A stretch of 12,986 bases of DNA from Clostridia bacterium (GTDB taxonomy: Bacteria > Bacillota_A > Clostridia > Monoglobales > Monoglobaceae). This document shows, piece after piece, positions 1 to 12,986 of the stretch. The stretch is taken from the NCBI GenBank assembly GCA_017436135.1, contig JAFSDQ010000022.1, forward strand, positions 1 to 12,986, given 5' to 3'. The position numbers were made by a program, and so were the translations under genes. A model generated the notes under the pieces. That model did no database searches. It was not told the origin of the DNA and was given only the letters and a program-made list of their open reading frames with translations. How positions within the stretch are numbered: the stretch's first letter is position 1; every line of letters starts with the position of its first letter.

Positions 1-1
1 C

Positions 2-940: not shown

Positions 941-956
941 TTATATTTGACATTTT

Positions 957-988
957 AAAAGCCGTAGCTTTTTTGCTACGGCTTTTTG
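957..988 (+). terminator. Rho-independent terminator after tuf, usable in both directions
   Basis: Perfect 8-bp stem GCCGTAGC (961-968) / GCTACGGC (975-982) with a T6 loop, preceded by AAAA (957-960) and followed by TTTTT (983-987). Because A-runs and T-runs flank both sides, it can also stop the leftward HAD gene that ends at 1067. Confidence 0.9.
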
Positions 989-1000
989 TTTGCAAATCTC

Positions 1001-1045
1001 GGATGAGGTGGAATTTGTAGGGACAGGCGTCCCCGACGGTCCGTT
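1001..1045. repeat. Possible dispersed intergenic repeat (GTAGGGACAGGCGTCCCC type)
   Basis: This short intergenic stretch is GC-richer than its surroundings and has a small hairpin, GGGAC (1020-1024) / GTCCC (1029-1033). From memory it resembles a GTAGGG..GGCGTCCCCGACGG..CCG sequence scattered between genes in many gut Clostridia. There is only one copy in this window, so calling it a genomic repeat is inference. The rest of 989-1066 shows nothing else. Confidence 0.35.
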
Positions 1046-1066
1046 TGGATTGTCTGTTTTGTGTTT

Positions 1067-1870
1067 TTATATAAGTCCAAGCTCTGAAAGAGCCACAGCT
1101 ACGCCTTCTTCTCCAACACTTCGGGTATATTTTTTTACAACTCCGTCAAGAAGAGGGGAGTGAGGCGTCATTGCAACTCCGCAGCCAACAGTTGTCAGCA
1201 TATCCAAATCGTTTTCGTCATCTCCGAAAGCGTAAGTGTTTTTTATATCAATGCCAAAATGTTTGATTACATTTTTTATTCCTGAAGCTTTAGTGATGCC
1301 CGCGCGGCTTACATCCCCTGAATTATATCCGTGATGCAGATTGACCTTGAATTTTCCGTTAAAGGCTTCAACAAGCTTTTTGTATTGGCTTTCTTCATCA
1401 AAGGCAAAGACAATCTTGTTTACCTCAAGTCCGTCTAGACTCTCAAAGGGGAGAAATGCGGAAGTGTCAACATTAAAAATATCTAAAAATTTTTCAAGCA
1501 ATTCTCTTCTTGCTCTGCCAAAGTAACAACGGTCAAAGGTTTCTACGTCATAGGCAATATTATTTTTGTCAAGAAAATCAATAAGAGGTATAAGCTCATT
1601 GTGGGGAATACATTCATTTATAAGTTTTTTGCCATTTACCTCAATTGCGGCACCATTGCTTGTAATGATGCAGTCAAAATCAATCCCTAAATCAGACATA
1701 TACCCCTTTGAGCGTCCTGTTGCAATCCCTGTAAGATAGCCGTTTTCCTTAAGTTTTGCAATAGCTTCCTTTGTTGCCTTTGTGGGGACATAAATTTCTA
1801 ATCTCTCGTCAACTAATGTTCCGTCTATGTCAAAAAATACTGCACCTTTGTAATTTATCTTATTTTTCAT
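1067..1870 (-). CDS. HAD-superfamily hydrolase, Cof type (sugar/nucleotide phosphatase-like)
   Basis: A 267-residue cytoplasmic phosphohydrolase. HAD motif I is FFDIDGTLV with nucleophile and acid Asp14/Asp16. The motif II Thr is in TGIATGRS, the Lys motif is near TKASGIKNVIKHFG, and motif IV is GDDENDLDML (about 216-225). The inserted cap between motifs II and III and the KASGIK / GDDENDxxML pattern place it in the Cof (class IIB cap) group, which dephosphorylates sugar phosphates, FMN or nucleotides. The substrate cannot be read from sequence. The frame stays open upstream to 1978, but ATG at 1868-1870 is chosen because GGAGGG sits 6 bases before it and the homologous region starts just after; the upstream extension overlaps the promoter. 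It diverges from ygiQ and faces the tuf terminator. Confidence 0.9.
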   Translation of the reverse strand: MKNKINYKGAVFFDIDGTLVDERLEIYVPTKATKEAIAKLKENGYLTGIATGRSKGYMSDLGIDFDCIITSNGAAIEVNGKKLINECIPHNELIPLIDFLDKNNIAYDVETFDRCYFGRARRELLEKFLDIFNVDTSAFLPFESLDGLEVNKIVFAFDEESQYKKLVEAFNGKFKVNLHHGYNSGDVSRAGITKASGIKNVIKHFGIDIKNTYAFGDDENDLDMLTTVGCGVAMTPHSPLLDGVVKKYTRSVGEEGVAVALSELGLI

Positions 1871-1901
1871 CTTTTGCCCTCCAAGATATTCTATATGATA
1901 T

Positions 1902-1930
1902 ATTGTATCCAAAGCAGGGGTAAAAATCAA
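1902..1930 (-). promoter_or_regulatory. Sigma-A promoter for the HAD gene
   Basis: On the minus strand: -35 TTGATT (plus 1925-1930), exactly 17 bases, then -10 TACAAT (plus 1902-1907). Predicted start near 1895 gives a leader of about 25 bases containing GGAGGG. The -35 box lies on one arm of the inverted repeat shared with the ygiQ promoter. Confidence 0.7.
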
Positions 1931-1958
1931 GTATATATATCTATATCTCTTGATTTTT
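1922..1958. promoter_or_regulatory. Inverted repeat joining two divergent promoters (possible operator)
   Basis: AAAAATCAAG (1922-1931) is the perfect reverse complement of CTTGATTTTT (1949-1958), with a 17-base AT-only-rich spacer (1932-1948). Each arm contains the -35 TTGATT of one divergent promoter, so a dimeric protein bound here would affect both. It may also simply be a symmetric promoter pair; no regulator gene lies next to it. Confidence 0.5.
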
Positions 1959-1978
1959 TCCTTGAAATGTTGTATCAT
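1950..1978 (+). promoter_or_regulatory. Sigma-A promoter for ygiQ-folD operon, predicted leaderless
   Basis: TTGATT (1950-1955), 17 bases, TATCAT (1973-1978). Transcription should begin about 7 bases after the -10, at roughly 1985-1986, which is the ATG of ygiQ itself. There is no other convincing promoter and no Shine-Dalgarno sequence upstream of that ATG. Confidence 0.6.
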
Positions 1979-1985
1979 ATAAGCT

Positions 1986-3932
1986 ATGGATAACAGAGAA
2001 AAATTTTTACCGATAAGTAAATACGATATGCAAAGTCGGGGGATAGAACAGCTTGACTTTGTCTTTGTTACGGGTGATGCTTATACAGACCACCCCAGCT
2101 TTGCCAATGCCTTAATTCCCAGATTGCTTGAGAGTCTTGGCTATACCGTGGGCATACTTGCCCAGCCCGATTGGCACAGCTTTGATGCCTTTACAGAGTT
2201 TGGAAAGCCTAAATATGCATTTTTTGTAAGTGGCGGAAATATTGATTCTATGGTAAATCACTATACAGCGGCGAAGAAGCGGAGAAACGAAGATTTATAC
2301 TCTCCCGGTGGTGAAACAGGGCATAGACCGGACAGAGCAACAATTGTGTATTGTAATAGAATAAGAGAGGCTTACGGCAAGGAAATCCCTGTTATAATCG
2401 GGGGAATTGAAGCAAGCTTGCGGCGATTTGCTCATTATGATTACTGGACAGACAAGGTAAGACGAAGCATATTGATAGACAGCGGTGCAGACCTTTTGAT
2501 TTATGGTATGGGGGAGCATCAGACGGAAGAAATAGCAGAACTTTTATCTATGGGAGTAGATGTCCGGGACATTAAAAATGTAAGAGGGACTGTGTACAAG
2601 GAAGATTTGGCTGAAAATCTTCCGCCTGATGGAGTTGTTGTTGAGGAATACAATAAGGTTTCCAATGATAAGCGGGAATATGCAAAGGCGACGGCTATGC
2701 AGTATAGAGAACAGGATGCATACAGAGGGAGAGCGGTAATACAGCTTGACAGAGATAAATATATAGTACAAAATCCCCCTGCATATCCCCTTACAACAGA
2801 GGAGCTTGACAGGATTTATGAGCTGCCATATATGCGAACATATCATCCGGTATACGAAAAACAAGGCGGTGTTCCTGCTATAGAAGAGGTTAAGTTTTCT
2901 ATAACCTCATCCAGGGGCTGCTTTGGTGCCTGCAGCTTTTGTGCCCTCACCTTTCATCAAGGCAGAACAATATCTGCCAGAAGTCACCAGTCAATTCTGC
3001 GGGAGGCGGAGCTTTTAACAAAGCTGCCTGATTTTAAGGGATATATTCATGATGTGGGAGGTCCTACCGCAAACTTTCGTGCTCCGTCCTGTGAAAAACA
3101 GATGAAATATGGGGTGTGTAAGGATAGGCAATGCTTGTTTCCAAGCCCTTGCAAAAATCTTCAGGTTTCACACAGAGAATATGTGGAGCTTTTGAGAAAG
3201 CTTCGGAAAATCAAGGGTGTCAAAAGAGTTTTTGTACGCTCGGGCATAAGATATGATTACCTTATATATGACAAGGATGATGAGTTTTTCAGAGAACTGT
3301 GCAAGCACCATATCAGCGGACAGCTTAAGGTTGCCCCCGAGCATATTTCCGATAATGTGCTTAAGTATATGGGAAAACCCTCGGCAGAGGTGTATAAAAA
3401 GTTCAGCGACAAATATAAAAGGATAAATGAGGAGCTTGGGAAAAAACAATTTCTTGTGCCATATCTCATGTCCTCCCATCCGGGAAGCCGGCTGAAGGAT
3501 GCGATTTCTCTGGCGGAGTATCTTCGGGATAATAAACTAAATCCGGAACAGGTTCAGGATTTTTATCCAACCCCGGGGAGCTTGTCTACCTGTATGTACC
3601 ATACGGGGATAGACCCACGAACAATGGAGAGTGTGTACGTACCTAAAACATACGAGGAAAAACAGATGCAAAGGGCTCTTTTGCAGTACAGACGCCCCGA
3701 GAATTACAATCTTGTCTACAAAGCCTTAAAAGAGGCGAAACGCCTTGATTTAATAGGAAATGGAGAAAGATGTCTGATAAAAGATAAAAGAAAAGGAGAA
3801 TTTAAAGATGGCAAAGATTTTAAGCGGAAAGACAGTATCAGCAAGAGTAAAAGAGGAGCTGAAAAAAGAGGTAGAAGCACTGACAAAGGCAGGAACACAG
3901 CCGGGGCTCGCCGTAGTAATCGTGGGCGATGA
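1986..3932 (+). CDS. ygiQ: YgiQ-family radical SAM protein
   Basis: A 648-residue YgiQ-type radical SAM enzyme whose exact reaction is not established. The N-terminal part ([37 protein letters not shown]) is typical of the family. The iron-sulphur motif CxxxCxxC is Cys312, Cys316 and Cys319 ([17 protein letters not shown]). A second Cys-rich stretch ([15 protein letters not shown]...PC) follows, then LKVAPEHIS and [20 protein letters not shown]. The start at 1986 is fixed by an in-frame stop (TAA, 1980-1982) directly upstream; no ribosome site precedes it. After the conserved end ([12 protein letters not shown]) comes a Lys/Arg-rich tail. Residues 608-648 of this tail are encoded inside folD in another frame, an unusual 125-bp overlap. 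The tail could be a read-through product of a lost stop codon. Confidence 0.93.
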
Positions 3933-4668
3933 TTCTGCCTCTAAAGTATATGTGGCAAATAAGGAAAAGGCTTGTGCGGAGCTTTCAATGTATTCAGAAA
4001 AGTATGCCCTGCCCCAGGAAACAACAGAGGAAGAGCTTCTCTCTCTTATAAATAAGCTGAATAATGATGATAAAATACACGGTGTATTGGTTCAGCTTCC
4101 ACTCCCCAAGCATCTTGACGATAAAACCATAATTAACAATATTCTTCCCCAAAAGGATGTGGATGCTTTTCATCCCACCAATGTAGGCAGAATTATGATA
4201 GGGGATTTTGATTTTGTGCCTTGTACTCCTGCAGGAATAATGGAGCTTATCCACGAAAGCGGAGTAGAGGTAGAGGGCAAGGAATGTGTTGTCATAGGAA
4301 GAAGTAATATTGTAGGAAAGCCAATGTCTATGCTTCTTCTTCACGAAAACGGCACAGTTACAACCTGTCATTCCAGAACAAAGGATTTAAAGGCGGCAAC
4401 CCGTCGTGCAGATATTCTTGTTGCGGCTGTAGGTATTCCTAAATTTGTGACAGGGGATATGGTAAAAGAGGGAGCGGTTGTAATTGATGTAGGAATGGAC
4501 AGAGATGAAAACGGCAAGCTTTGCGGTGATGTGGACTTTGATTCAGTAGAACCAGTTGCAGGAGCAATCACCCCTGTACCCGGCGGTGTTGGACCTATGA
4601 CAATTGCAATGCTCATGAAAAACACATTAACTGCCGCAAAGAGAGCCCACGAGAAAAAGCAGGGATAA
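3808..4668 (+). CDS. folD: Bifunctional methylenetetrahydrofolate dehydrogenase / cyclohydrolase
   Basis: A 286-residue FolD, the normal family length. It interconverts 5,10-methylene-, methenyl- and 10-formyl-tetrahydrofolate with NADP for purine, Met-tRNA formylation and one-carbon supply. Visible motifs are [18 protein letters not shown] with the catalytic Lys of the YVxNKxK motif, [22 protein letters not shown] (usually DVDGFHP, so Gly to Ala here), [11 protein letters not shown], the nucleotide-binding [18 protein letters not shown], and the terminal [15 protein letters not shown]. The start at 3808 is set by AGGAGA some 8 bases upstream and by the family's N-terminal pattern ([11 protein letters not shown]). 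It overlaps the last 125 bp of ygiQ and is followed after 3 bases by the small Cys protein, so the three are probably one transcript. Confidence 0.97.
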
Positions 4669-4671
4669 AAT

Positions 4672-4845
4672 ATGATAAATTGCGAAGATTGTATGAATTA
4701 TTACTATGACGAAGAGGGTGAATATTACACTTGTTCCGTTCAGCTTGACGAGGACGAGATGTATAAATTTATGGGCGGACAAATACGAGAATGCCCATAT
4801 TACCGCCCCGGTGATGAATATACAATAGTAAGAAAACAAAAATAA
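4672..4845 (+). CDS. Small four-cysteine protein, DUF6472-like
   Basis: A 57-residue protein beginning MINCEDCMNYYYDEEGEYYT and ending TIVRKQK. It has four Cys arranged CxxC (4, 7), then Cys21 and Cys41 (ECPYYRPGDEY), and is rich in Asp, Glu and Tyr. The pattern suggests one bound metal, probably zinc. From memory it matches the Clostridial small family labelled DUF6472, which often follows folD; no function is known to me. The start ATG lies 3 bases after the folD stop. The ribosome site AGGG overlaps the folD stop codon, which implies translational coupling. The two-way terminator begins at its own stop codon. Confidence 0.82.
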   Translation: MINCEDCMNYYYDEEGEYYTCSVQLDEDEMYKFMGGQIRECPYYRPGDEYTIVRKQK

Positions 4846-4878
4846 AACAGAGGATAGGTAAGACCTATCCTCTGTTTT
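4845..4878. terminator. Bidirectional terminator between convergent genes
   Basis: Perfect 15-bp stem: 4845-4859 (AAACAGAGGATAGGT) and 4863-4877 with loop AAG. It is A-rich on the left and T-rich on the right (GTTTTC), so it works for both strands. The stop codon and last two codons of the leftward GTPase-nuclease gene are inside the stem. Confidence 0.9.
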
Positions 4879-7417
4879 CGTTTATAAGCTCTCGTATTTC
4901 ATTTTCCGCTGCTTCTACCTCAAGACGGAATTCGTCGGCAGAAATTCGAAAAGCACCGTTACCGAGAATAATCAGCTGTTCCATATAGTCCGAGGTGGCA
5001 ACACGGACATTATGGTTTTTGCCAAGCTCGTGTGTTGTTTTTTCTATATAAGAGTCGGCGGTTTCAGCTTCTTTAGTATACACCACATTTACATTATGAA
5101 TTTTTTCAACGCTGCCCGGGTTGCCTTTTACCTTGTAAGCATCAAAGACAAGAATAACCTCAACGTTTCTCATTGCCCTGTATGCGCTGACTCGGGTAAG
5201 AAGCTTGTTCCTTGCATATTCAAGGTCAATGTCGGCGGCGTCCTTCAAGTCTTTCCAGGCAAAAATTATGTTGTAGCCGTCAATCAGCATATAATCCCCT
5301 CGTTTTGGCTTTGGCTTGGGGGTTTTATATTTATATTCAGCTGTCTTTCGGGGCTGCATTGCGTTGAAATTTCTATGAACAACCTTGCCATAAGTCTGTT
5401 CAAATATTTTAAGAAGCTCTTCGTCGCTTGCCAAGCTGTGGTTTGAATGATTTTCCACAGCTTGCCGTGGCATTTTGACTTCAGGCTCACTTAAATCATA
5501 GGCAGGAAGATGCATATAATCTGCTACCTGATCCCATTTTACAATAAAGCCTGACCCGTGAGAGCAAAAAACGGAATCGGGTGTGTTGTCCGGGTCTGCT
5601 TCAGGGTCATAGCCAATTGTATCTATTACCTGTTCTGTGTCAGAGCAAGGCTCGTATCCTGAAAGAGAGCAGGAAATGCGGCCTCTTCCCCGAGTATAAG
5701 AGGTAAGATTTTTTTGATAGTCCCTCATTTTTGCCGCAGGAGCAGTTCCTTTAATGTAAGAGATTTCTCCAATGGTTTCAGGAGGCGAGATTTCACCGCT
5801 CATCTGGCTGATATCTGTCATCGCTCTTCCTACACAGTCTGTGGGAAGTTCAATGGAAAACTTAAACCAAGGCTCAAGCAGAACATTCTTCGCCTGCATC
5901 AATCCCTGACGGATTGCCCGATATGTGGCTTGACGGAAATCTCCGCCCTCTGTATGCTTAATGTGAGCCTTACCTGCAACCAGGGTAATCTTCATGTCTG
6001 TTATGGGCGAGCCTGTAAGGACCCCCAAATGGGTTTTTTCTTCAAGATGAGTCATAATCAATCGTTGCCAGTTTCGGTCAAGCTCATCTTCATTGCATTT
6101 TGTGCTGAATTTAAGTCCGCTTCCCCGCTCAATGGGTTCAAGAAGAAGATGAACCTCTGCATAGTGACGAAGAGGCTCAAAATGCCCTACGCCCTCCACT
6201 TTTTCTGCTATGGTTTCTTTATATATTATGCTTCCCTTTTCAAATTCTACGGCCATTTTAAAACGCTCTGCTATAATGCTCTTCAGCACTTCTAACTGAA
6301 CCTCTCCCATAATCTGTACCTGAATTTCCTTTAGCTGTTCGTTCCACATAATATGAAGCTGTGTTTCTTCCTCCCCAAGCTGTTTTAAGTTAGAAATTGC
6401 TGTATGCAGATCGACTCCCTTGGGCAATATTACAGAGTAGGTAAAAATAGGTTCAAGAGAAAGTGCCTCGGAATTTTCTTCTCTGCCAAGTCCCATACCG
6501 GGATAGGTTTTCACCGGTCCTGTTATTGCACAAACAGTGCCTGTGTCTGCATGGGATACGGGAGTATACTTCTCTCCCGAATATATGCGGATTTCGTTTA
6601 CTTTTTCGGGGGCGTCAGTCCCGATAAGCTCCTTTACCTTAAGAGTGCCTCCTGTTATTTTAAGGTGGGTAAGGCGGTTGCCCTTATCGTCTTCGGATAT
6701 TTTAAACACCTTTGCACCAAAGTCGGAGTGGTGAGGTTTTTCCTTTGTGTATTCATCAAGCAGAGCTGAAAAATCGTCAATACCATCCAGCTTCAAGGCA
6801 GACCCAAAACAACAGGGAAAAATATTTCGATTTAAAATAGCATCCCTCAAGGAATCCTTTGAAAGAGGCTTTCCCCGTAAATATTCCTCCATTAGTAGTT
6901 CGTCGCACATAGCGACGGTTTCCGAAAAATTGGGATTATTCTGATAATTGCTGAAATCAACACAATTATCACTCAAACGGGCTGAAAGCTCCGCCATAAG
7001 CTCATCTTGCTTATCCTCTGCCAGGTCCATTTTGTTTACAAAGATAAAGGTAGGAATAGAGTGGTGGCAAAGAAGTCGCCACAGGGTTTCTGTGTGGCTC
7101 TGCACTCCGTCGGTTCCGCTGATTACCAAAATTGCATAGTCGAGGACCTGCAGAGTGCGTTCCATCTCTGCAGAAAAGTCAATGTGACCGGGAGTATCAA
7201 GCAAAGTAAATTCTGCTGACCCGGAAGAGATAATTGCCTGCTTTGAGAAGATAGTAATTCCCCGGTCGCGTTCTATTTTGTTTGTGTCAAGGTAGGCGTC
7301 TTTGTGGTCAACTCTGCCCAATTTTTTTGTCATTCCAAATGAATACAAAAGCCCCTCTGAAAGGGTTGTTTTGCCGGAATCCACGTGAGCCAAAATACCG
7401 ATTGCAAGTTTTTTCAT
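4865..7417 (-). CDS. Tet(M)-like ribosomal GTPase fused to a C-terminal Rae1/YacP NYN endoribonuclease domain
   Basis: An 850-residue cytoplasmic fusion. Residues 1-650 follow EF-G/Tet(M) layout: P-loop AHVDSGKT (10-17), RGIT (52-55), DTPGH (74-78), NKMD (128-131), GSAL (205-208), then domains II-V. The tip of domain IV, where Tet(M) has YSPVSTPADF, reads HIKHTEGGDFR (485-495), so tetracycline protection is not supported. After a basic linker (KYKTPKPKPKRG) residues 708-850 match B. subtilis YacP/Rae1. These include IDGYN (Asp713), VFDA (Asp759), TKEAETAD (Asp788) and ATSDYMEQ (Asp810), all acidic active-site positions kept. Rae1 cuts mRNA in the ribosomal A site and Tet(M)-type GTPases act in the same site. 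A role in ribosome clearing or mRNA surveillance is inference. Start ATG 7415-7417 has GGGGA just upstream. The gene has its own promoter and an 87-base leader. Confidence 0.9.
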   Translation of the reverse strand: MKKLAIGILAHVDSGKTTLSEGLLYSFGMTKKLGRVDHKDAYLDTNKIERDRGITIFSKQAIISSGSAEFTLLDTPGHIDFSAEMERTLQVLDYAILVISGTDGVQSHTETLWRLLCHHSIPTFIFVNKMDLAEDKQDELMAELSARLSDNCVDFSNYQNNPNFSETVAMCDELLMEEYLRGKPLSKDSLRDAILNRNIFPCCFGSALKLDGIDDFSALLDEYTKEKPHHSDFGAKVFKISEDDKGNRLTHLKITGGTLKVKELIGTDAPEKVNEIRIYSGEKYTPVSHADTGTVCAITGPVKTYPGMGLGREENSEALSLEPIFTYSVILPKGVDLHTAISNLKQLGEEETQLHIMWNEQLKEIQVQIMGEVQLEVLKSIIAERFKMAVEFEKGSIIYKETIAEKVEGVGHFEPLRHYAEVHLLLEPIERGSGLKFSTKCNEDELDRNWQRLIMTHLEEKTHLGVLTGSPITDMKITLVAGKAHIKHTEGGDFRQATYRAIRQGLMQAKNVLLEPWFKFSIELPTDCVGRAMTDISQMSGEISPPETIGEISYIKGTAPAAKMRDYQKNLTSYTRGRGRISCSLSGYEPCSDTEQVIDTIGYDPEADPDNTPDSVFCSHGSGFIVKWDQVADYMHLPAYDLSEPEVKMPRQAVENHSNHSLASDEELLKIFEQTYGKVVHRNFNAMQPRKTAEYKYKTPKPKPKRGDYMLIDGYNIIFAWKDLKDAADIDLEYARNKLLTRVSAYRAMRNVEVILVFDAYKVKGNPGSVEKIHNVNVVYTKEAETADSYIEKTTHELGKNHNVRVATSDYMEQLIILGNGAFRISADEFRLEVEAAENEIRELINENRG

Positions 7418-7510
7418 AATAGTCCCCGTTTAACCTGAAATAAGTTATCACATTCGTACAAGCTTTCGTCATTACTTCAAGTTTAAAATAAAGTAGCATT
7501 ATTTCAAAAA

Positions 7511-7539
7511 ATTATAGCATATTTATAGGTTTTTATCAA
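7511..7539 (-). promoter_or_regulatory. Near-consensus sigma-A promoter for the GTPase-NYN gene
   Basis: Minus strand TTGATA (plus 7534-7539), 17 bases, TATAAT (plus 7511-7516) with an extended TG upstream of the -10 (TGCTATAAT). Start is predicted near 7504, giving a leader of about 87 bases before the ATG. I see no convincing terminator hairpin or attenuator in that leader. Confidence 0.8.
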
Positions 7540-7616
7540 CATAATTTTATTAGGAACTTATATTTTTTGCATAAATGCGGAAAATATTTTTATGGCTGAA
7601 AAACGGAGGGGAAAAA

Positions 7617-9284
7617 ATGATTAAAATAAAAGGAAAAGCCGTATCAGGCGGAATTGCAATTGGAAAAATAATGTTCCTGAAGAAGAATGAGATAGAGATA
7701 GAGGCAAAGCACAGCGAAAATGAAAGACAGGAGCTTGACAGATACAGGCAGGCCGTGGAAAAGGCTGTATTGGAGCTAAACACAATGATTGCCGAAGCAA
7801 AAGCAAATGGCAGAGAAGATGCGGCAGAAATATTTGAAATACATCAAATGATGCTTTTTGATAAGGAATATGTTACCGAAATCGAGGAAATGATTACTAA
7901 AGAAAAGTGGATTTCGGAATATGCGGTAGAGGAAACCTCAAAGAAGTTTTCCCAGGCGTTTTTATCTATGGACAGTGAGTATATGAGGGGCAGAGCTGCA
8001 GATGTAATGGATGTTTCGGACAGAATAATAAGATTGCTGTCAGGGGGCATAGAAGAGGATGACAGAATAGGTTTGGACAAAGAAAAAATTATTCTTTGTG
8101 CAGATGACCTTACCCCCAGCGAAACCGTAAGACTTGACAAAAATAAGGTGGTAGCCTTTGCTACCAAAGGCGGAACCGCCCAATCTCATACTGCGATTAT
8201 AGCGGGGACTATGAACCTTCCTGCAATTATTGCATTGGGGAATGATTTGTCAGAGGAATATGACGGAATGACGGCTGTAGCAGATGGTGTAGGGGGCTAT
8301 TTGTATGTAAATCCACCTCTTGAATTTTTAGAGGATGCAAAGGAGAGATGCCGAAAAGAAAAGCTGAAAAGAGAACGGCTTCGTCAGTTGAAAGGAATGA
8401 AAAATATCACAGAAGACGGACGGGAAATTATGGTATATGCAAATATTGGTACACCGACAGACGTGGATGAGGTATTGGATAATGACGGGGGAGGCATAGG
8501 GCTTTTCAGGAGTGAATTTTTATACCTGAAATGCAAAAATTTTCCCACTGAAGAGGAACAATTTAATGCGTATAAATCCGTGCTGAAGAAAATGGGAGAC
8601 AAAAGGGTTATAATCAGAACCATGGATATAGGCGCGGATAAGCAGATAGATTATTTTGGACTGGATATAGAGGAAAATCCTGCACTTGGCTACAGGGCAA
8701 TAAGAATATGCCTGACCCGCAGGGAGATTTTTAAAACCCAGCTCAAGGCGTTATTTCGTGCATCTGCTTTTGGGAAATTGGGAATAATGATACCTATGGT
8801 TATATCCCTTGAGGAGGTATTGGAAACCAAGAAAATCATTGAAGAGGTAAAAGCCGAGCTTAAATACAACAAAATAGAATTTGATGAAAAGACAGAGTTT
8901 GGTATAATGATAGAAACTCCCGCTGCAGTGATGATAAGCGACGACCTTGCAAAAGAGGTGGATTTTTTCAGCATAGGAACAAATGATTTAACACAGTACA
9001 GCCTGGCGATAGACAGACAAAATCCACAAGTTGAGGCATACTATAATCCCCGCCATAAGGCGTTGATGAGAATGATACACAAGACGGTAGAAAATGCCCA
9101 CAAAGAGGGAATATGGTGCGGAGTATGCGGTGAGCTTGCTGCAAATCTTGATATGACAGAACAGCTTTTAGCCATGGGAGTTGATGAATTCTCTGTTTCG
9201 CCCCCTCATATACTCTCTCTTCGGGAAAAAATAAGGTCTGTAAATATTAAAAAAATTACAAAGTCTAACCTCGATATCCTGTAA
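7617..9284 (+). CDS. ptsI: PTS enzyme I (phosphoenolpyruvate-protein phosphotransferase)
   Basis: A 555-residue enzyme I, slightly shorter than E. coli EI. It takes phosphate from phosphoenolpyruvate and passes it to HPr at the head of the sugar phosphotransferase system. The phospho-accepting His is His191 in GGTAQSHTAI; compared with the common GGRTSH this has one extra residue before Ser-His. The PEP-binding barrel shows MDIGADKQIDYFG, ENPALGYRAIR, MIETPAAVMISDDLAKEVDFFSIGTNDLTQYSLAIDRQN and the catalytic Cys504 in GVCGELAAN. The frame is open from 7575, but ATG 7617 is chosen because GGAGGGG (about 7606-7611) sits just before it and MIKIKGKAVSGG is the family N-terminus. No ptsH or sugar permease is in the window. 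I cannot assign a promoter with confidence. Confidence 0.96.
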   Translation: MIKIKGKAVSGGIAIGKIMFLKKNEIEIEAKHSENERQELDRYRQAVEKAVLELNTMIAEAKANGREDAAEIFEIHQMMLFDKEYVTEIEEMITKEKWISEYAVEETSKKFSQAFLSMDSEYMRGRAADVMDVSDRIIRLLSGGIEEDDRIGLDKEKIILCADDLTPSETVRLDKNKVVAFATKGGTAQSHTAIIAGTMNLPAIIALGNDLSEEYDGMTAVADGVGGYLYVNPPLEFLEDAKERCRKEKLKRERLRQLKGMKNITEDGREIMVYANIGTPTDVDEVLDNDGGGIGLFRSEFLYLKCKNFPTEEEQFNAYKSVLKKMGDKRVIIRTMDIGADKQIDYFGLDIEENPALGYRAIRICLTRREIFKTQLKALFRASAFGKLGIMIPMVISLEEVLETKKIIEEVKAELKYNKIEFDEKTEFGIMIETPAAVMISDDLAKEVDFFSIGTNDLTQYSLAIDRQNPQVEAYYNPRHKALMRMIHKTVENAHKEGIWCGVCGELAANLDMTEQLLAMGVDEFSVSPPHILSLREKIRSVNIKKITKSNLDIL

Positions 9285-9295
9285 AATATTTATAT

Positions 9296-9324
9296 TTGAC
9301 TTTTTTCTGTATATATGATAAAAT
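9296..9324 (+). promoter_or_regulatory. Strong sigma-A promoter of the PP2C-FHA-cysK cluster
   Basis: TTGACT (9296-9301), 17 bases, TAAAAT (9319-9324). Start is predicted near 9331, leaving about 36-48 bases before the PP2C coding region. No other clear promoter is seen between here and 11837. Confidence 0.75.
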
Positions 9325-9358
9325 TTAACGGTATGTATATGAAGCTTTGAAGGGTGGT

Positions 9359-9382
9359 ATGTCTGCTTGGAGTTTGCAATGA
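9359..9382 (+). CDS. Possible 7-residue leader peptide coupled to the PP2C gene
   Basis: ATG at 9359 follows a good ribosome site (GAAGGGTGGT) and reads MSAWSLQ, then TGA. This TGA overlaps the ATG at 9379 of the phosphatase gene (ATGA). Such overlap allows translation to restart on the downstream gene. It may instead be chance, with the same ribosome site serving the TTG at 9367. Confidence 0.25.
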   Translation: MSAWSLQ

Positions 9383-10068
9383 TTACAAGGCAGGGCGAAA
9401 AAGAATATAACAGCGACTTTATTACAGTTACCGAAGACGGGGACTGCAGTTTTTTTGCTGTAGCAGACGGACACGAAACGCCATGGGCGGCAGAGCTTGC
9501 AGTGAAAACTGTAGCAGAGGATTTTCAAAAATCCAGTGGAATTACAAAGGAGTCTATTGTAGAATTTTTTGCGGATGCGGACAAGGCATTGCGGGAGGAT
9601 GAAAATCCCCTTAATGCCTGTATGGCATTTATGCTGACAGATGGACAGATTGCGGTATGGGGCAATATTGGCGACTGTAGAGTGTATTGGCTTCGTGATA
9701 ATTTGCTCTATGAAATTACCCCCGATCATAGTGGCGCTTATGCCCTTTATGAGGCAGGGGAGATAAGATATCCCAAAATACGCAGACAGAAAACAAGATA
9801 CGATTTAACCCACATGTTGGGGGATGGATACGATGCAACTCCGGGACTTTCTCAACCGGAGGTTATCCGCAAGGGAGACAGTTTTCTTATTTGCACAGAC
9901 GGATTTTGGAGTAACATCCATGAGCTTCAGATTGAAAAATCCTTGAAGAAATCTTCAAGTGCCCAGGAATGGTTAGATAAGATGGTTAAAATTGTAGATA
10001 AAAATATGCATTTTAAGAAATATTCAAGATTTAAAGACGGCATAGGTGCGATAACCATAAAAATATAA
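9367..10068 (+). CDS. PP2C-type Ser/Thr protein phosphatase (divergent)
   Basis: A compact cytoplasmic metal-dependent phosphatase of 233 residues from TTG 9367, or 229 from ATG 9379. PP2C marks in order are: RQGEKEYNSDF near the N-terminus, the metal Asp in VADGHE (Asp34, usually ADGMGG), NIGDCRVYWLRDN (the GDSRAYL region), ITPDHS, ICTDGFWSN (metal Asp of the CSDGLWD block), and DGIGAITIKI where most have DNITxVVV. The changed DGH and DGIG loops make it a divergent member, but the metal aspartates remain. TTG has GGGTGG at 9 bases and is favoured over ATG 9379. The FHA gene follows 64 bases later, so this pair probably reads and removes Thr phosphorylation from a kinase encoded elsewhere. 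Confidence 0.85.
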   Translation: MEFAMITRQGEKEYNSDFITVTEDGDCSFFAVADGHETPWAAELAVKTVAEDFQKSSGITKESIVEFFADADKALREDENPLNACMAFMLTDGQIAVWGNIGDCRVYWLRDNLLYEITPDHSGAYALYEAGEIRYPKIRRQKTRYDLTHMLGDGYDATPGLSQPEVIRKGDSFLICTDGFWSNIHELQIEKSLKKSSSAQEWLDKMVKIVDKNMHFKKYSRFKDGIGAITIKI

Positions 10069-10132
10069 TAAAAAGGGTTGTGGTGTCCGCGCACGACTAC
10101 AGGGGATTATGCGGACAGGAAGGCAGTTTGAA

Positions 10133-10855
10133 ATGAAAAAGAGTGTATACAGGATATTGACTATACTTTTGTGTTTATTTACAAAAATTGGATATGCAAC
10201 ACCTAATACAGAAAATCAGGAAATTATGATAAGTCAGGTTGATGCGGTAGATTATGTAATATTTATGGGAATAGGCGTATTTTTAATAGGTATGCTATTG
10301 ATTCTCCTTTCAATGTACTCGGGCGGTAAAAATAAGGCTGAAGTTGAAGAAGAATATTCAATGGAGGAAGAGCTTGAGGAGCCAGAAGAGGAGGTTCTCG
10401 CAGAGCCTGAAGAGGAAGCTGTACAGGCAGAAGAGCCTGTAGAGGAAATGCCAGAAGAGCCTGCAGAGATAATCGCCGAAGAACCTGTTCCCGCTTCCAT
10501 TCCGGAGAAAGTACAGGAAGAGGCAGAAGAAGTTGAAGAAGAGGAAGTTGAAGAAGAAAAAGCGAAAGTTCGTATAACTCTTACAGGAGTAAATAACTCG
10601 GATGTAAAAATTGCAGAATTCTCACGAGAGGCAACTGTTGGAAGAAGAGGGACTAACGATATAATAATAGCGGATAATGCGGTATCCGGTTGCCATTGTA
10701 TTTTTACATACGAAGACGGAGCAGTTCTTGTTAAAGACCTGGAGTCTACGAATGGGACCATTATAAATGGTGAGGTTATTGATAAAGAAGAGATAAAGAG
10801 CGGAGATTATATAGTTCTTGGAAAGCATAAATATAAGATAAATATTTCTTTATGA
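10133..10855 (+). CDS. Membrane-anchored FHA-domain protein with acidic linker
   Basis: A 240-residue protein. MKKSVYRILTILLCLFTKIG looks like a signal peptide with possible cleavage after GYA (residue 22). A second hydrophobic span (about 39-62, YVIFMGIGVFLIGMLLILLS) anchors it. Residues about 69-143 are a Glu/Pro-rich tract (EEPEEEVLAEPEEE type), then a C-terminal FHA domain (about 146-238). The domain has VGRRGTND, AVSGCHCIF and DLESTNGTIING. The phosphothreonine-contact Ser185, His188 and Asn of TNG are present; the Arg of the usual SRxH is Gly here. The predicted topology puts the FHA domain in the cytoplasm, where it would bind phosphothreonine partners. The frame opens at 10109, but ATG 10133 with AGGAAGG 9 bases upstream and a proper signal peptide is preferred. 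Likely co-transcribed with the PP2C gene. Confidence 0.85.
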   Translation: MKKSVYRILTILLCLFTKIGYATPNTENQEIMISQVDAVDYVIFMGIGVFLIGMLLILLSMYSGGKNKAEVEEEYSMEEELEEPEEEVLAEPEEEAVQAEEPVEEMPEEPAEIIAEEPVPASIPEKVQEEAEEVEEEEVEEEKAKVRITLTGVNNSDVKIAEFSREATVGRRGTNDIIIADNAVSGCHCIFTYEDGAVLVKDLESTNGTIINGEVIDKEEIKSGDYIVLGKHKYKINISL

Positions 10856-10863
10856 CAAGCGTT

Positions 10864-10886
10864 AGGCGATAGCACTGCTATCGCCT
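10864..10886 (+). promoter_or_regulatory. Hairpin without U-tract between the FHA gene and cysK
   Basis: AGGCGATAGC (10864-10873) and GCTATCGCCT (10877-10886) form a perfect 10-bp stem with loop ACT. The following bases GAATAATTTGG are not a T-run, so it is not a standard terminator. It may be an RNA-stability or processing element, or a weak attenuator ahead of cysK. The cysK ribosome site lies 10 bases downstream. Confidence 0.5.
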
Positions 10887-10907
10887 GAATAATTTGGAGG
10901 GTTTAAT

Positions 10908-11837
10908 TTGAATATATATAAAAACGTGACAGATTTAATAGGAAAGACGCCAATTATAGAGCTTAAAAAAGTCGAGAACAATGTTTCGGCAAAGGCTGCA
11001 ATACTTGCAAAGCTTGAATGTTTTAACCCTGCGGGAAGTGCAAAGGACAGGGTTGCAGCATCAATGATTGAGGATGCAGAAAAAAGGGGAATATTGAAAA
11101 AAGGCTCTGTAATAATTGAACCCACAAGCGGCAATACCGGAATAGGGCTTGCGGCGGTTGCTGCAGCAAAGGGATACAGGGTTATTCTTACCATGCCTGA
11201 TTCTATGAGCATAGAGCGGCAGAATCTTTTAAAGGCATACGGTGCTCAAATTGTGTTGACAGAAGGCGCAAAAGGAATGAAAGGTGCAATAGAAGAGGCA
11301 GAAGCGCTTAAAAGAAAAATAGACGGAAGTATTATCCCGGGACAATTTGTAAATGAAATGAACCCTATAGCTCATTACAGGACAACAGGACCTGAAATAT
11401 GGGAGGATACAGATGGGAAAATTGATATTTTTGTAGCCGGAATCGGCACAGGAGGCACAATTTCCGGTGTAGGGAAGTTTTTAAAGGAAAAAAATCCTGA
11501 TATTAAAATTGTGGGTATAGAGCCGGAGGATTCTCCACTTATTTCAAAAGGTATAGCAGGTCCTCATGGAATACAGGGAATAGGGGCAAATTTTGTGCCG
11601 GATATCCTTGATACAGAGGTTATAGACGAGATTATAACTGTTACAAGTGAGGATGCGTACAAGTATGGGAGAATGCTTGCAAGAGAGGAAGGAATTCTTG
11701 TGGGAATATCCTCGGGAGCAGCAGTGTACGGAGCAGCAGAGCTTGCAAAAAGAATTGAAAATAAGGGAAAGGTTATTGTTGCACTTCTTCCTGATACAGG
11801 GGAGAGATATCTTTCTACCCCAATGTTTTGCGAATAA
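10908..11837 (+). CDS. cysK: Cysteine synthase A (O-acetylserine sulfhydrylase)
   Basis: A 309-residue PLP enzyme that makes cysteine from O-acetylserine and sulfide. The PLP Lys is Lys46 in NPAGSAKDRVA. The substrate/PLP loop is TSGNTGIGLA (73-82). GTGGTISG binds the PLP phosphate, and the C-terminal region has EEGILVGISSGAA and LLPDTGERYLST, as in CysK. The start is TTG 10908 with GGAGGG (10896-10901) 6 bases upstream; no ATG near the N-terminus would keep the family pattern (xxIYKNVTDLIGKTPIIEL). No serine acetyltransferase (cysE) is in the window. There is no promoter of its own in the 52-base gap, so it is probably read from the PP2C promoter, perhaps tempered by the hairpin before it. 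I see no clear terminator after it. Confidence 0.95.
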   Translation: MNIYKNVTDLIGKTPIIELKKVENNVSAKAAILAKLECFNPAGSAKDRVAASMIEDAEKRGILKKGSVIIEPTSGNTGIGLAAVAAAKGYRVILTMPDSMSIERQNLLKAYGAQIVLTEGAKGMKGAIEEAEALKRKIDGSIIPGQFVNEMNPIAHYRTTGPEIWEDTDGKIDIFVAGIGTGGTISGVGKFLKEKNPDIKIVGIEPEDSPLISKGIAGPHGIQGIGANFVPDILDTEVIDEIITVTSEDAYKYGRMLAREEGILVGISSGAAVYGAAELAKRIENKGKVIVALLPDTGERYLSTPMFCE

Positions 11838-11851
11838 AGGTGTGTTTTTTC

Positions 11852-11880
11852 TTGACAAGGAAAAGGAATTGTGGTAAAAT
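11852..11880 (+). promoter_or_regulatory. Strong promoter in front of the first tRNA-Leu fragment
   Basis: TTGACA (11852-11857), exactly 17 bases, TAAAAT (11875-11880). Start is predicted near 11887, about 44 bases before the tRNA-Leu sequence. This is a stable-RNA type promoter, suggesting the first fragment was once a working tRNA gene. Confidence 0.8.
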
Positions 11881-11930
11881 GCATAATTGTAAGTGATGCA
11901 CAAAACAATGTTTTGGCAGAACAAAAACTT

Positions 11931-11972
11931 GCGGGCGTGGCGGAATTGGCAGACGCGCTAGACTTAGGTTCC
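11931..11972 (+). pseudogene. tRNA-Leu(UAG) 5' half, copy 1, cut after the anticodon
   Basis: Starts GCGGGCG (acceptor 5' strand), then the D-arm TGGCGGAATTGGCAGACGCG, anticodon stem CTAGA and loop CTTAGGT (anticodon TAG). After GGTTCC the sequence leaves tRNA: the 3' anticodon strand (TCTAG), variable arm, T-arm and acceptor 3' strand are missing. A strong promoter precedes it. The bases after the anticodon instead form a new hairpin (11964-11992) running into an IVS-type cassette. Confidence 0.8.
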
Positions 11973-11992
11973 ACACCTTGTGTGAAACCTAA
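11964..11992 (+). repeat. Hairpin made from the broken anticodon loop and the cassette edge
   Basis: TTAGGTTCCACAC (11964-11976) pairs with GTGTGAAACCTAA (11980-11992), loop CTT, 13 positions with one C-A mismatch. The left arm includes the TAG anticodon; the right arm ends where the left inverted repeat of the cassette begins. Confidence 0.6.
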
Positions 11993-12422
11993 ATGCAAAA
12001 TTCAAAATGCAGAATGCAAAATGAGATGAGGTTTGATTGTGAGCGAAAATATAATCGTTGATAAAAGTTTTGATTTTGCAGTCCGTATTGTGAATTTAAA
12101 TAAGTATTTGAATAATGAGCAAAAAGAATATATTTTGTCAAAGCAACTACTTCGCAGTGGTACAAGTATCGGCGCAAATGTTTCGGAAGCGGAACGAGCA
12201 CAAAGCAAAGCTGATTTTATTTCAAAAATGAGTATCGCTTTAAAAGAAGCAAACGAAACGAATTATTGGCTAAAATTATTATATAAGACTGACTACTTAA
12301 ACAAATCGCAATATGATAGCATAAATACAGATATTAACGAGTTGATAAGCATTTTAATCGCTATCTGCAAAACTTCAAATTCAAGTAAATAATTCTGCAT
12401 TATGCACTATGCATTTTGCATT
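11992..12422 (+). mobile_element. IVS-type cassette bounded by imperfect 32-bp inverted repeats
   Basis: The left end 11992-12023 and right end 12391-12422 are reverse complements at 26 of 32 positions, starting with a perfect AATGCAAAAT. Both are built from low-complexity AATGCA/GAATGC units. They enclose a single gene of the 23S rRNA intervening-sequence (four-helix bundle) family. In RNA the ends would form a long stem around the gene, as 23S IVS elements do. There is no transposase. Boundaries are inferred from the repeats. Confidence 0.55.
12039..12392 (+). CDS. Four-helix-bundle protein, 23S rRNA IVS (S23) family
   Basis: A 117-residue all-helical protein, the usual length for this family. 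Family marks are SENIIVDKSFDFAVRIVNL, EYILSKQLLRSGTSIGANVSEA, SKADFISKMSIALKEANETNYWLKLL and a last helix ending ISILIAICKTS. Related proteins are encoded within insertions in 23S rRNA genes or serve as Avd-like partners in diversity-generating retroelements; the family is thought to bind nucleic acid. Start GTG 12039 (MSENII) has GAGG 7 bases upstream; a TTG at 12033 is in frame but sits inside that spacing. Its stop overlaps the start of the right inverted repeat. It lies directly downstream of a tRNA-Leu half, so it is expressed, if at all, from the tRNA promoter. No reverse transcriptase is present. Confidence 0.9.
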   Translation: MSENIIVDKSFDFAVRIVNLNKYLNNEQKEYILSKQLLRSGTSIGANVSEAERAQSKADFISKMSIALKEANETNYWLKLLYKTDYLNKSQYDSINTDINELISILIAICKTSNSSK

Positions 12423-12433
12423 ATTATAAATAT

Positions 12434-12475
12434 GCGGATGTGGCGGAATTGGCAGACGCGCTAGACTTAGGTTCC
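12434..12475 (+). pseudogene. tRNA-Leu(UAG) 5' half, copy 2
   Basis: Acceptor 5' strand GCGGATG (differs from copy 1), then the same 31-base D-arm/anticodon block (12441-12471) and GTTCC. It departs from tRNA exactly where copy 1 does. It is identical to copy 4 for 53 bases, 12441-12493 against 12924-12976. A matching acceptor strand CATCCGC is absent from the window. Confidence 0.8.
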
Positions 12476-12494
12476 GTCCTGTATGTGATTTTAT
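12461..12494 (+). repeat. Direct repeat, left border of the zinc-ribbon cassette
   Basis: Runs from the anticodon stem CTAGACT through GTTCCGTCCTGTATGTGATTTTA. A degenerate copy lies at 12656-12692 on the far side of the small gene and another follows tRNA copy 4 at 12944-12986. Confidence 0.6.
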
Positions 12495-12521
12495 CGAATA
12501 TACTGTTAAGGAGGCTTTATT

Positions 12522-12659
12522 ATGCCAACTGAATGTGCTGAATGTGGTTGTAGTTTAAGTGGAGCTGAATATGTTGCTCCATGGGAAGACGATGATAACG
12601 AATACGGTTATTATATTTGTCCAAATTGCGGATACGAAAATGAATTTTATGATGACTAG
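12522..12659 (+). CDS. 45-residue zinc-ribbon-like protein
   Basis: MPTECAECGCSLSGAEYVAP is followed by an acidic stretch and YICPNCGYENEFYDD. Two CxxC knuckles (Cys5/Cys8 and Cys33/Cys36) with an extra Cys10 fit a small rubredoxin-like or zinc-ribbon fold; the rest is acidic. AAGGAGG (12508-12514) stands 7 bases before the ATG, an excellent ribosome site that supports real translation. I recognise no named family. The gene lies between two tRNA-Leu fragments, and its stop codon is within a CTAGACT copy of the flanking direct repeat, so coding region and repeat border are joined. Expression from the tRNA promoter upstream is possible; none of its own is seen. Confidence 0.75.
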   Translation: MPTECAECGCSLSGAEYVAPWEDDDNEYGYYICPNCGYENEFYDD

Positions 12660-12692
12660 ACTCCGTTCCGTATGTGATTTTATTGTTGATTA
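12656..12692 (+). repeat. Degenerate direct repeat, right border of the zinc-ribbon cassette
   Basis: Reads CTAGACTCCGTTCCGTATGT then GATTTTATTGTTGATTA. Against the tRNA copies it keeps CTAGACT, GTTCCGT and ATGTGATTTTA but has lost a few bases around the anticodon. 12670-12692 matches 12964-12986 (after copy 4) at 22 of 23 positions. Confidence 0.6.
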
Positions 12693-12729
12693 CGGTTTTT
12701 GCCGTTTTCATATATGAGGATTAAGCGAT

Positions 12730-12768
12730 ATGCTCCTCCTCGGTGTACCTCCACCGTGTAAAAATTAA
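12730..12768 (+). CDS. Possible 12-residue mini-ORF MLLLGVPPPCKN
   Basis: ATG 12730 follows TGAGGA by about 9 bases and is followed by three CTC Leu codons and three Pro codons, ending TAA at 12766-12768. Leu codons beside tRNA-Leu sequence and a Pro-Pro-Pro run recall regulatory leader peptides. The bases CCTCCT (12735-12740) could also pair with the ribosome site AGGAGG (12509-12514) of the zinc-ribbon gene, so the sequence may matter as RNA rather than as peptide. Confidence 0.25.
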   Translation: MLLLGVPPPCKN

Positions 12769-12786
12769 GAGGTGAAAACTTAATAT

Positions 12787-12858
12787 GCGGGCGTGGCGGA
12801 ATTGGCAGACGCGCTAGACTTAGGATCTAGTGATCTTATCGTGGGGGTTCAAGTCCCT
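12787..12858 (+). tRNA. tRNA-Leu(UAG), copy 3, lacking the acceptor 3' strand
   Basis: The most complete copy. It has GCGGGCG, D-arm, anticodon stem-loop CTAGA-CTTAGGA-TCTAG (anticodon TAG, reads CUA and other CUN codons), variable arm with GAT/ATC pairing, and T-arm GGGGG-TTCAAGT-CCCT. After 12858 the sequence becomes GAAGGTTTGC instead of the needed C plus CGCCCGC. The last T-stem pair, the acceptor 3' strand and the discriminator base are therefore missing. A tRNA-finding program may still score it, but it should not form a working tRNA. Confidence 0.7.
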
Positions 12859-12916
12859 GAAGGTTTGCTAACGAAGTACGGCTCGTGTAAATGCTAACAA
12901 CTAAAATTTAATATCT

Positions 12917-12958
12917 GCGCCAGTGGCGGAATTGGCAGACGCGCTAGACTTAGGTTCC
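12917..12958 (+). pseudogene. tRNA-Leu(UAG) 5' half, copy 4, near the window end
   Basis: Acceptor 5' strand GCGCCAG (different again), then the same 31-base block (12924-12954) and GTTCC. It continues like copy 2 (CGTCCTGTATGTGATTTTA) and then GTGTTGATTA as in the right border of the zinc-ribbon cassette. The window ends at 12986, so what follows is unseen. Confidence 0.75.
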
Positions 12959-12986
12959 GTCCTGTATGTGATTTTAGTGTTGATTA

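Follow-up and report, generated by a model that had tools for sequence, protein, structure and literature searches.

What could have placed four truncated copies of one tRNA gene, all in the same orientation, within about a kilobase of a clostridial contig? This question is raised by contig JAFSDQ010000022.1 of Clostridia bacterium (assembly GCA_017436135.1), of which we analyzed positions 1 to 12,986, referred to here as the window, and where tRNA-Leu(UAG) sequences recur downstream of cysK up to the contig end. We consider it very likely that this array records the left ends of several mobile elements nested at one tRNA-Leu(UAG) gene, each element having split the gene and supplied a replacement.

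A 32-base block from the 5' part of tRNA-Leu(UAG), GTGGCGGAATTGGCAGACGCGCTAGACTTAGG, is found exactly at 11937-11968, 12440-12471, 12793-12824 and 12923-12954, always on the + strand, and none of 200 dinucleotide shuffles reached four matches. A previous interpretation made from the letters alone, hereafter the sequence-only reading, had described four identical blocks within 1.05 kb; the repeats are indeed exact, although their length had been given as 31 bases. It had also noted that the acceptor-side flanks differ, that three copies quit the tRNA past the anticodon, and that the window holds no 3' acceptor strand, all of which stand. Copies 1, 2 and 4 depart from the tRNA after TTAGGTTCC; copy 3 runs on past the anticodon stem, variable arm and T-loop, and departs within the T-arm after GTTCAAGTCCC (12847-12857); and the complementary strands CGCCCGC, CATCCGC and CTGGCGC are all three absent from the + strand of the window. 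ARAGORN called no tRNA in the window, and the Rfam tRNA match at copy 3 falls below threshold (23 bits versus 29). The four copies are as follows.

11931..11968, + strand: copy 1, 5' half of tRNA-Leu(UAG), acceptor GCGGGCG, cut at TTAGG, as read from the sequence
12434..12471, + strand: copy 2, 5' half of tRNA-Leu(UAG), acceptor GCGGATG, which in relatives is one of the element-type acceptors
12787..12857, + strand: copy 3, tRNA-Leu(UAG), acceptor GCGGGCG, whole up to the T-loop and without 3' acceptor strand
12917..12954, + strand: copy 4, 5' half of tRNA-Leu(UAG), acceptor GCGCCAG

The departure sequence TTCCGTCCTGTATGTGA is common to copies 2 and 4, and is a shared half-site rather than the beginning of two unrelated payloads. 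The proposal that every copy is followed by a new and unrelated payload needs amending, as a conserved structured leader also recurs and the payloads are thus not all unrelated.

The same junction occurs in relatives. Scanning 84,980 species genomes with the pattern GACGCGCTAGAYTTAGGTTCC yielded eight loci, every one of them in a metagenome-assembled genome (MAG) of ruminant-gut Clostridia, and two pattern scans of viral contigs gave no match. These eight genomes share one layout, namely, a host promoter, the host tRNA 5' half cut between TTAGG and TTCCGT, and a leader of about 120 nt. An intact tRNA-Leu(UAG), which had been predicted farther downstream, follows the leader in six of the eight loci, the other two contigs stopping earlier. 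The anticodon-type unit so defined measures 162-165 bp, and two units are present in both G001 and G007; the outermost half in G001 retains its own anticodon stem, CCAGA. The eight first loci have no upstream gene family in common. In 11/11 occupied genomes the outermost 5' piece is preceded by a sigma-70-like site with 10-12 of 12 positions in agreement, each being the best site in the searched stretch, scored with no shuffle control; in G005, 175 bp separate this site from the half, and a truncated piece lies between them. When the first 5' half was compared with the adjacent intact tRNA, only 3-5 of 7 bases paired in 8/8 loci checked. The host tRNA gene is broken at the junction and not restored there.

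The missing 3' halves were recovered elsewhere. Orphan tRNA-Leu(UAG) 3' halves exist in four of the 11 occupied genomes (G003, G004, G008 and G040), and each begins at TTAGG and is preceded by an arm reading TTCTTTCACATATGC..AACCA. Paired with its own 5' half, the distant 3' half matches at 7/7 acceptor and 5/5 anticodon-stem positions in 4/4 cases, and the joined flanks read as an unbroken tRNA-Leu(TAG), that is, tRNA-Leu(UAG), in all four. Swapping halves among genomes of different sequence lowers the pairing to 5/7 or 4/5, the swaps between G003 and G004 (identical stems) and those of G040 (identical acceptor) being uninformative. G008 carries on its 5' side, in this order, a D-loop-cut piece, an anticodon-cut half (GCGGGCG) and an intact tRNA with acceptor GCGGATG, and the partner of its orphan 3' half is the anticodon-cut piece, an arrangement that fits second-round splitting of a replacement tRNA. 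An additional 3' end past this orphan half resembles a local tandem duplication and was not used as support.

Unsplit counterparts of the broken genes were also found. G043 has an unsplit tRNA-Leu behind the seven gene families that precede the split tRNA in G004 and G044, and comparable synteny joins G045 (unsplit) with G040 over four families and G042 (unsplit) with G039 over three. At the DNA level the 446 bases leading to the cut are 84% identical between G004 and G043, and the 3' half of G004 agrees with G043 at 51/51 positions; G039 and G042 are 74% identical over 449 bases, with different acceptors, and G040 aligns with G045 in the tRNA region only. The tRNA pattern is present in 43/51 genomes of the order to which G004 belongs. 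That the copies might turn out to be normal complete tRNA-Leu genes, the outcome which the sequence-only reading had named against itself, is contradicted in relatives by these matched halves and unsplit syntenic genes. In six of six genomes checked by patterns (G001, G002, G004, G006, G007 and G008) a single intact tRNA-Leu(UAG) was seen, that of the array, a count in which gaps or diverged copies may conceal more, these being MAGs. In three loci (L100 after 7467, L104 after its tRNA-Leu, and L058 on the - strand) the last ~15 tRNA bases, of the TTCGGGCGCACCA type, are repeated ~130-190 bp 3' of a tRNA-Leu that is either intact or a 3' half, and the filler separating them is unrelated; this is a small duplication or insertion event of its own at the 3' end of the tRNA.

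The sequence-only reading had suggested looking for a recombinase gene downstream, and in relatives it is there. Beyond the intact tRNA, five of the eight loci (L030, L031, L032, L033 and L035) encode a 539-amino acid protein, 95-98% identical across genomes and cut by the contig end in two of the five. The L030 protein combines Resolvase, Recombinase and zinc-ribbon domains, as large serine recombinases do, and in G002 the recombinase gene lies 55 bp past the tRNA. NCBIfam gave weak matches to CcrB/CcrC, far under their cut-offs; a plasmid search with the recombinase returned one match, at 41%, and a phage search returned none at E<=1e-60. Past the recombinase, L030 encodes a relaxase, a NikA/MobC protein and an AAA protein (AAA_25); relaxase homologs are also present in L031 and L033 (three of the five recombinase loci, L030 included), and the remaining five of the eight loci, which run into contig ends, showed none. 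Between tRNA and recombinase, L030 has a type I restriction-like fusion as cargo and L033 an AbiEi-like protein, and L034 has a TIR-SIR2 protein ahead of its contig end. We also noticed that the inner tRNA-Leu of L101 (7168-7251, G044:C41) joins a GCGGATG acceptor to a CGCCCGC 3' strand, with two mispairs, and is either a hybrid between two types of element or a misassembly.

Attachment (att) sites of serine recombinases generally look like imperfect palindromes. Combining the two arms gives a 42-bp attP, TCACATATGCTATATAACCATTAGGTTCCGTCCTGTATGTGA, which is an imperfect palindrome about a central TT, with 24 of 42 positions self-complementary, a value equalled by 48 of 20,000 shuffles; the core common to attL and attR is TTAGG. 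Sister recombinases, 41-43% identical, adjoin tRNA-Leu(CAG) in G039, G015, G005 and G001, and the layout of their loci is the same, with 5' halves of the CAG type, a leader related to the one above and a tRNA-Leu(CAG) that is intact. Of six recombinases at 28-30% identity, one has two tRNA-Ser genes in its vicinity, and the fetched loci of the other five contain no tRNA. In L138 (G041:C18), tRNA-Ser(TGA) and tRNA-Ser(GCT) sit less than 400 bp from a distant serine recombinase (30% identical), which is perhaps another tRNA-linked enzyme.

These data suggest the following mechanism. The large serine recombinase of an anticodon-type element would join attP to the anticodon loop of tRNA-Leu(UAG) at the TTAGG core. 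The left end would keep the host promoter and 5' half, and the 3' half would be displaced to the far right end. Since so short a core cannot rebuild the tRNA at the junction, the element would carry, inside its left end and in the orientation of the broken gene, the leader and a complete tRNA-Leu(UAG), and read-through from the host promoter into this replacement would let the cell retain its tRNA-Leu(UAG). The replacement carries the same target and may therefore be split by a following element that brings another; repeated rounds would leave tandem units, with 5' halves of differing acceptors in series here and the 3' halves nested at a distance. The sequence-only reading proposed that elements bring a fresh 5' half; what is supplied is a whole replacement tRNA, which would be split later. 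Its proposal that site-specific elements piled up at the anticodon region is supported by the same junctions in relatives, one of the four junctions in the window being in the T-arm.

The remaining features of the window are listed here.

11852..11880, + strand: sigma-70-type promoter TTGACA-17-TAAAAT between cysK and copy 1, 11/12 consensus positions
11969..11985, + strand: TTCCACACCTTGTGTGA, probable half-site of a related element, by its likeness to TTCCGTCCTGTATGTGA alone
12033..12392, + strand: gene for a four-helix-bundle protein of the 23S rRNA intervening sequence type
12472..12488, + strand: attL half-site TTCCGTCCTGTATGTGA of an anticodon-type element, its junction matching relatives
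12522..12659, + strand: 45-codon open reading frame (ORF) whose four cysteines are in CxxC spacing, by eye resembling a zinc ribbon
12662..12677, + strand: second half-site copy, TCCGTTCCGTATGTGA, without tRNA fragment
12684..12786, + strand: structured leader RNA with pseudoknot, immediately 5' of copy 3, from alignment and covariance
12858..12916, + strand: T-arm-type unit separating copies 3 and 4, a leader-like spacer with an identical counterpart in G058
12955..12986, + strand: attL half-site TTCCGTCCTGTATGTGA and the beginning of a second leader, up to the contig end

The promoter is taken as that of the original tRNA-Leu gene. Copy 1 would be this host gene, probably cut by an element with the related half-site TTCCACACCTTGTGTGA, which was not seen in other loci, and whose cassette would carry the four-helix-bundle gene. 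This gene, of the 23S intervening-sequence family, sits here among tRNA-Leu 5' halves and not in rRNA (11992-12422), and is bordered by inverted repeats of 31 nt (11992-12022 and 12392-12422; 84% complementary). From the homology of their junctions, copies 2 and 4 can be firmly assigned as predicted junctions of anticodon-type elements, and the predicted element that cut copy 2 is, with equal firmness, of this type, its left end carrying the 45-codon ORF flanked by two half-sites; this ORF had no matches in Pfam, NCBIfam or PADLOC. Copy 3 has its junction in the T-arm, as in G058, where the unit between copies 3 and 4 is reproduced identically over 70 bases. The attL junction (copies 2 and 4) and the leader (12684-12786) of such arrays are present in the window, whose placement among them is based on junction homology. 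Its own species is absent from the 391 genomes of the class searched, where the best DNA match was 71%.

The leader deserves separate treatment. We built a covariance model on its 69-nt core and searched the 391 class genomes, obtaining 23 matches in 20 of them, three of the 23 being among the model's source sequences. Every one of the 23 has tRNA-Leu sequence behind it (19 called by ARAGORN; four cut or at a contig end), and in 18, judged by eye, a tRNA-Leu 5' half lies upstream of the leader, with none in the other five (G263, G283, G270, G065 and G134). The leader also precedes tRNA-Leu genes without an element junction, and L176 has two in tandem. Instances were seen before tRNA-Leu(UAG) or tRNA-Leu(CAG) in the window and in L173, L175, L176, L029 and L001. 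Across 36 distinct instances from the fetched loci, the hairpin varies as CGGT/ACCG, CGGG/CCCG, CGGC/GCCG and CGGTTT/AAACCG, and its loop pairs with a segment before the tRNA, forming a pseudoknot, with loop and tail pairs such as ACCTC/GAGGT, TATCTCA/TGAGATA, TGTCCTC/GAGGACA, TAGTTTCC/GGAAACTA, GTCGCA/TGCGAC, TTTCTCT/AGAGAAG, CTCTT/AAGAG and ATCCTCT/GGAGGAT. Pairing was scripted on unaligned loop and tail segments, because MAFFT had set L001 one column off near the pseudoknot. In 30 of 33 unique loop/tail pairs, the own score was equalled by at most 5% of 300 tail shuffles; among 18 helix types, many rows of which are related, the mean own score was 15.5 versus 11.8 with swapped tails. Rfam 15, searched over the leader region, returned only tRNA models in L030 (E<=5) and in L173, L175, L176 and L029 (E<=1). 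The leader is a covarying pseudoknot RNA without a match in Rfam. Our best guess for its role, which we advance tentatively and as less than an even bet, is that it controls transcription or 5' processing of tRNA-Leu. An ATG followed by three CTC codons is found in 11 of 13 leaders (one of the others has ATC first and one starts with TTG), and it raised the remote idea of a leader-peptide attenuator; this was rejected, as differences between copies alter the amino acids and keep the RNA pairing, and the homologous leader of L001, which by eye has no ATG-CTC frame, counts against it too. A promoter of the leader's own was likewise discarded, two scanned loci giving no consistent sigma-70 site.

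Two further kinds of unit were observed. D-loop-type units (L035, - strand, 11220-11400; L064; L168) consist of a tRNA-Leu 5' piece truncated after GGTAG, followed by a spacer that is conserved and GC-rich (GCGGTCGAAATC..GATTTCGGG..CCGCAAAC.GTCTCGCGGGCGCG) and another tRNA-Leu 5' half; L037 has a different spacer behind a cut at GGAATT. T-arm-type units (L116, 6345-6653, G040:C32; L170; L177; L179; L107) are cut between ..GTTCAAGTCC and GTGAACCCTTTTTAAGGGAG.., or between CCC and TGAAGG.., and those of L116 stand in tandem before tRNA-Leu(CAG), near the right end of the element. No recombinase for either kind was recognized among nearby ORFs, two of which were checked in Pfam.

How do other explanations of such arrays compare with nested elements? 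Tandem duplication of a tRNA-Leu and its leader, followed by decay and capture of small genes and needing no recombinase, would suit the head-to-tail, nearly uniform anticodon-type units, whose leader and 5' block are almost identical. We nevertheless hold it to be very improbable, as it is opposed by the attL/attR pairs, by fully paired 3' halves that lie elsewhere next to a conserved arm, by unsplit syntenic genes, and by outermost halves that retain host promoter and acceptor, unlike the inner copies. We give scarcely any credence to a functional split or spliced tRNA, with the cassettes as introns or 23S-type intervening sequences in one transcript. The cut does fall in the anticodon loop, where introns usually lie, and one cassette does encode a protein of the 23S intervening-sequence family; however, what comes after the 5' half nearby is a complete tRNA rather than a 3' half, and downstream lie genes for a serine recombinase and a relaxase. 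The intron or intervening sequence was rejected on the mismatch of the next 3' half with the first 5' half. An assembly artefact at a short repeat could be suspected, given that all eight pattern matches are MAGs, that several contigs end in the repeat, and that the acceptor strands mispair in the inner G044 tRNA. However, separate assemblies from several host animals show the same junctions and spacings, and four attL/attR pairs recover fully paired tRNAs, which leaves this explanation barely credible. Misassembly of the window array is itself unlikely, because the anticodon junction and leader recur in separate MAGs and the unit between copies 3 and 4 recurs in G058.

A different objection would be that the recombinase next to the tRNA is carried as a passenger, the junctions being made by another, unseen enzyme. 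Its action on these sites is deduced from sequence, three of the eight loci end ahead of its gene, and the same arrays contain T-arm and D-loop junctions for which no recombinase was recognized. Against this, the gene lies close to the tRNA and is near-identical in five genomes with differing upstream genes, sister enzymes adjoin tRNA-Leu(CAG) in the same layout, and the deduced attP is palindromic, so that we regard a passenger as very unlikely. Other observations weigh against nested elements directly. The window has neither a recombinase gene nor a tRNA 3' half before its contig ends at 12986, and the far end of its own array is placed by analogy with relatives. Among the eight loci, the contig of L034 ends in cargo and those of L036 and L037 in the array, short of a recombinase. 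The 3' halves were not found in seven of the 11 occupied genomes (G001, G002, G005, G006, G007, G039 and G044); no genome has both element ends on one contig, nor a doubled array with both 3' halves, which is why nesting is presented here as probable and not as observed. G043, the best unsplit site, is not pristine, with ~150 extra bases downstream that include a repeated tRNA 3' end. Recombinase relatives in G009 and G011 (46-47% identical) have no tRNA in the fetched 4.6-kb loci, and the serine recombinase does not explain copy 3 or the D-loop junctions.

Comparison with known systems separates what is new from what is not. Breaking a needed tRNA gene and carrying a substitute is already known from phages: in tRNA-dependent lysogeny, tyrosine-integrase phages do precisely this (Guerrero-Bustamante and Hatfull, 2024; PMC10865867, whose discussion also names prophage Lj965), and here too the host tRNA is broken and the element has a complete tRNA of the same isotype, intact in six of eight loci. 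Those phages, however, use a tyrosine integrase and express the tRNA from its own promoter elsewhere in the phage genome, whereas the present elements have a serine recombinase and a relaxase, and place the replacement ~120 bp inside attL behind the host promoter, where it would be reused as a target, with units stacking, and where a common leader RNA is found; tyrosine integrase and phage genes were not encountered, although a whole element was never on one contig. Serine-recombinase islands at a single-copy RNA gene, in tandem and with gene fragments, are known from the ssrA (tmRNA) islands of Dehalococcoides (PMC3146451), and are comparable to Ccr elements of the staphylococcal cassette chromosome (SCC) type; there, a 20-bp tmRNA 3' fragment is repeated and ssrA is kept at one end, in contrast to an anticodon-loop cut and a whole replacement. 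Integrative and mobilizable elements of Firmicutes such as Tn4451 (PMC5704250) likewise have one large serine recombinase, relaxase or mobilization genes and a very short core, but the site-specific ones are described as disrupting dispensable genes, whereas here the target is a tRNA gene of which no other intact copy was seen. A 2014 paper states that no serine integrase was known to use tRNA genes as its target (PMC4383910). The tRNA islands of the Islander type described in the same source share the tRNA target, an anticodon-loop crossover subsite and a displaced fragment at one end, yet classical islands restore the gene with their own att segment, via a tyrosine integrase. Our search of the PubMed Central literature, mostly at the level of titles and abstracts, recognized no report of a serine recombinase that splits a tRNA gene and supplies a replacement, nor of this leader RNA. 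As far as that literature goes, the novelty lies in the combination of serine recombinase, tRNA anticodon, replacement behind a trapped promoter, stacking and leader RNA.

A wider proposal, which we put forward as somewhat less than an even chance, is that mobilizable elements with serine recombinases are widespread in Clostridia, take over tRNA-Leu genes of both the UAG and the CAG kind at the anticodon loop, capture the host promoter and become the carriers of the cell's tRNA. Common to these elements would be a new leader RNA with a pseudoknot, which would govern or mature tRNA-Leu and would have stood before the host genes prior to capture, and further families would hit the D-loop and T-arm. 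An element that appears to cut what is apparently the only intact gene for a tRNA, and that survives through the replacement it supplies, should be hard to lose. Since the replacement tRNA offers a fresh target, such loci may become hot spots of stacked integration with defense-type cargo. For the recombinases, this points to a family with a conserved anticodon loop as its natural target and, for tRNA-Leu, to a structured leader RNA that is missing from Rfam.

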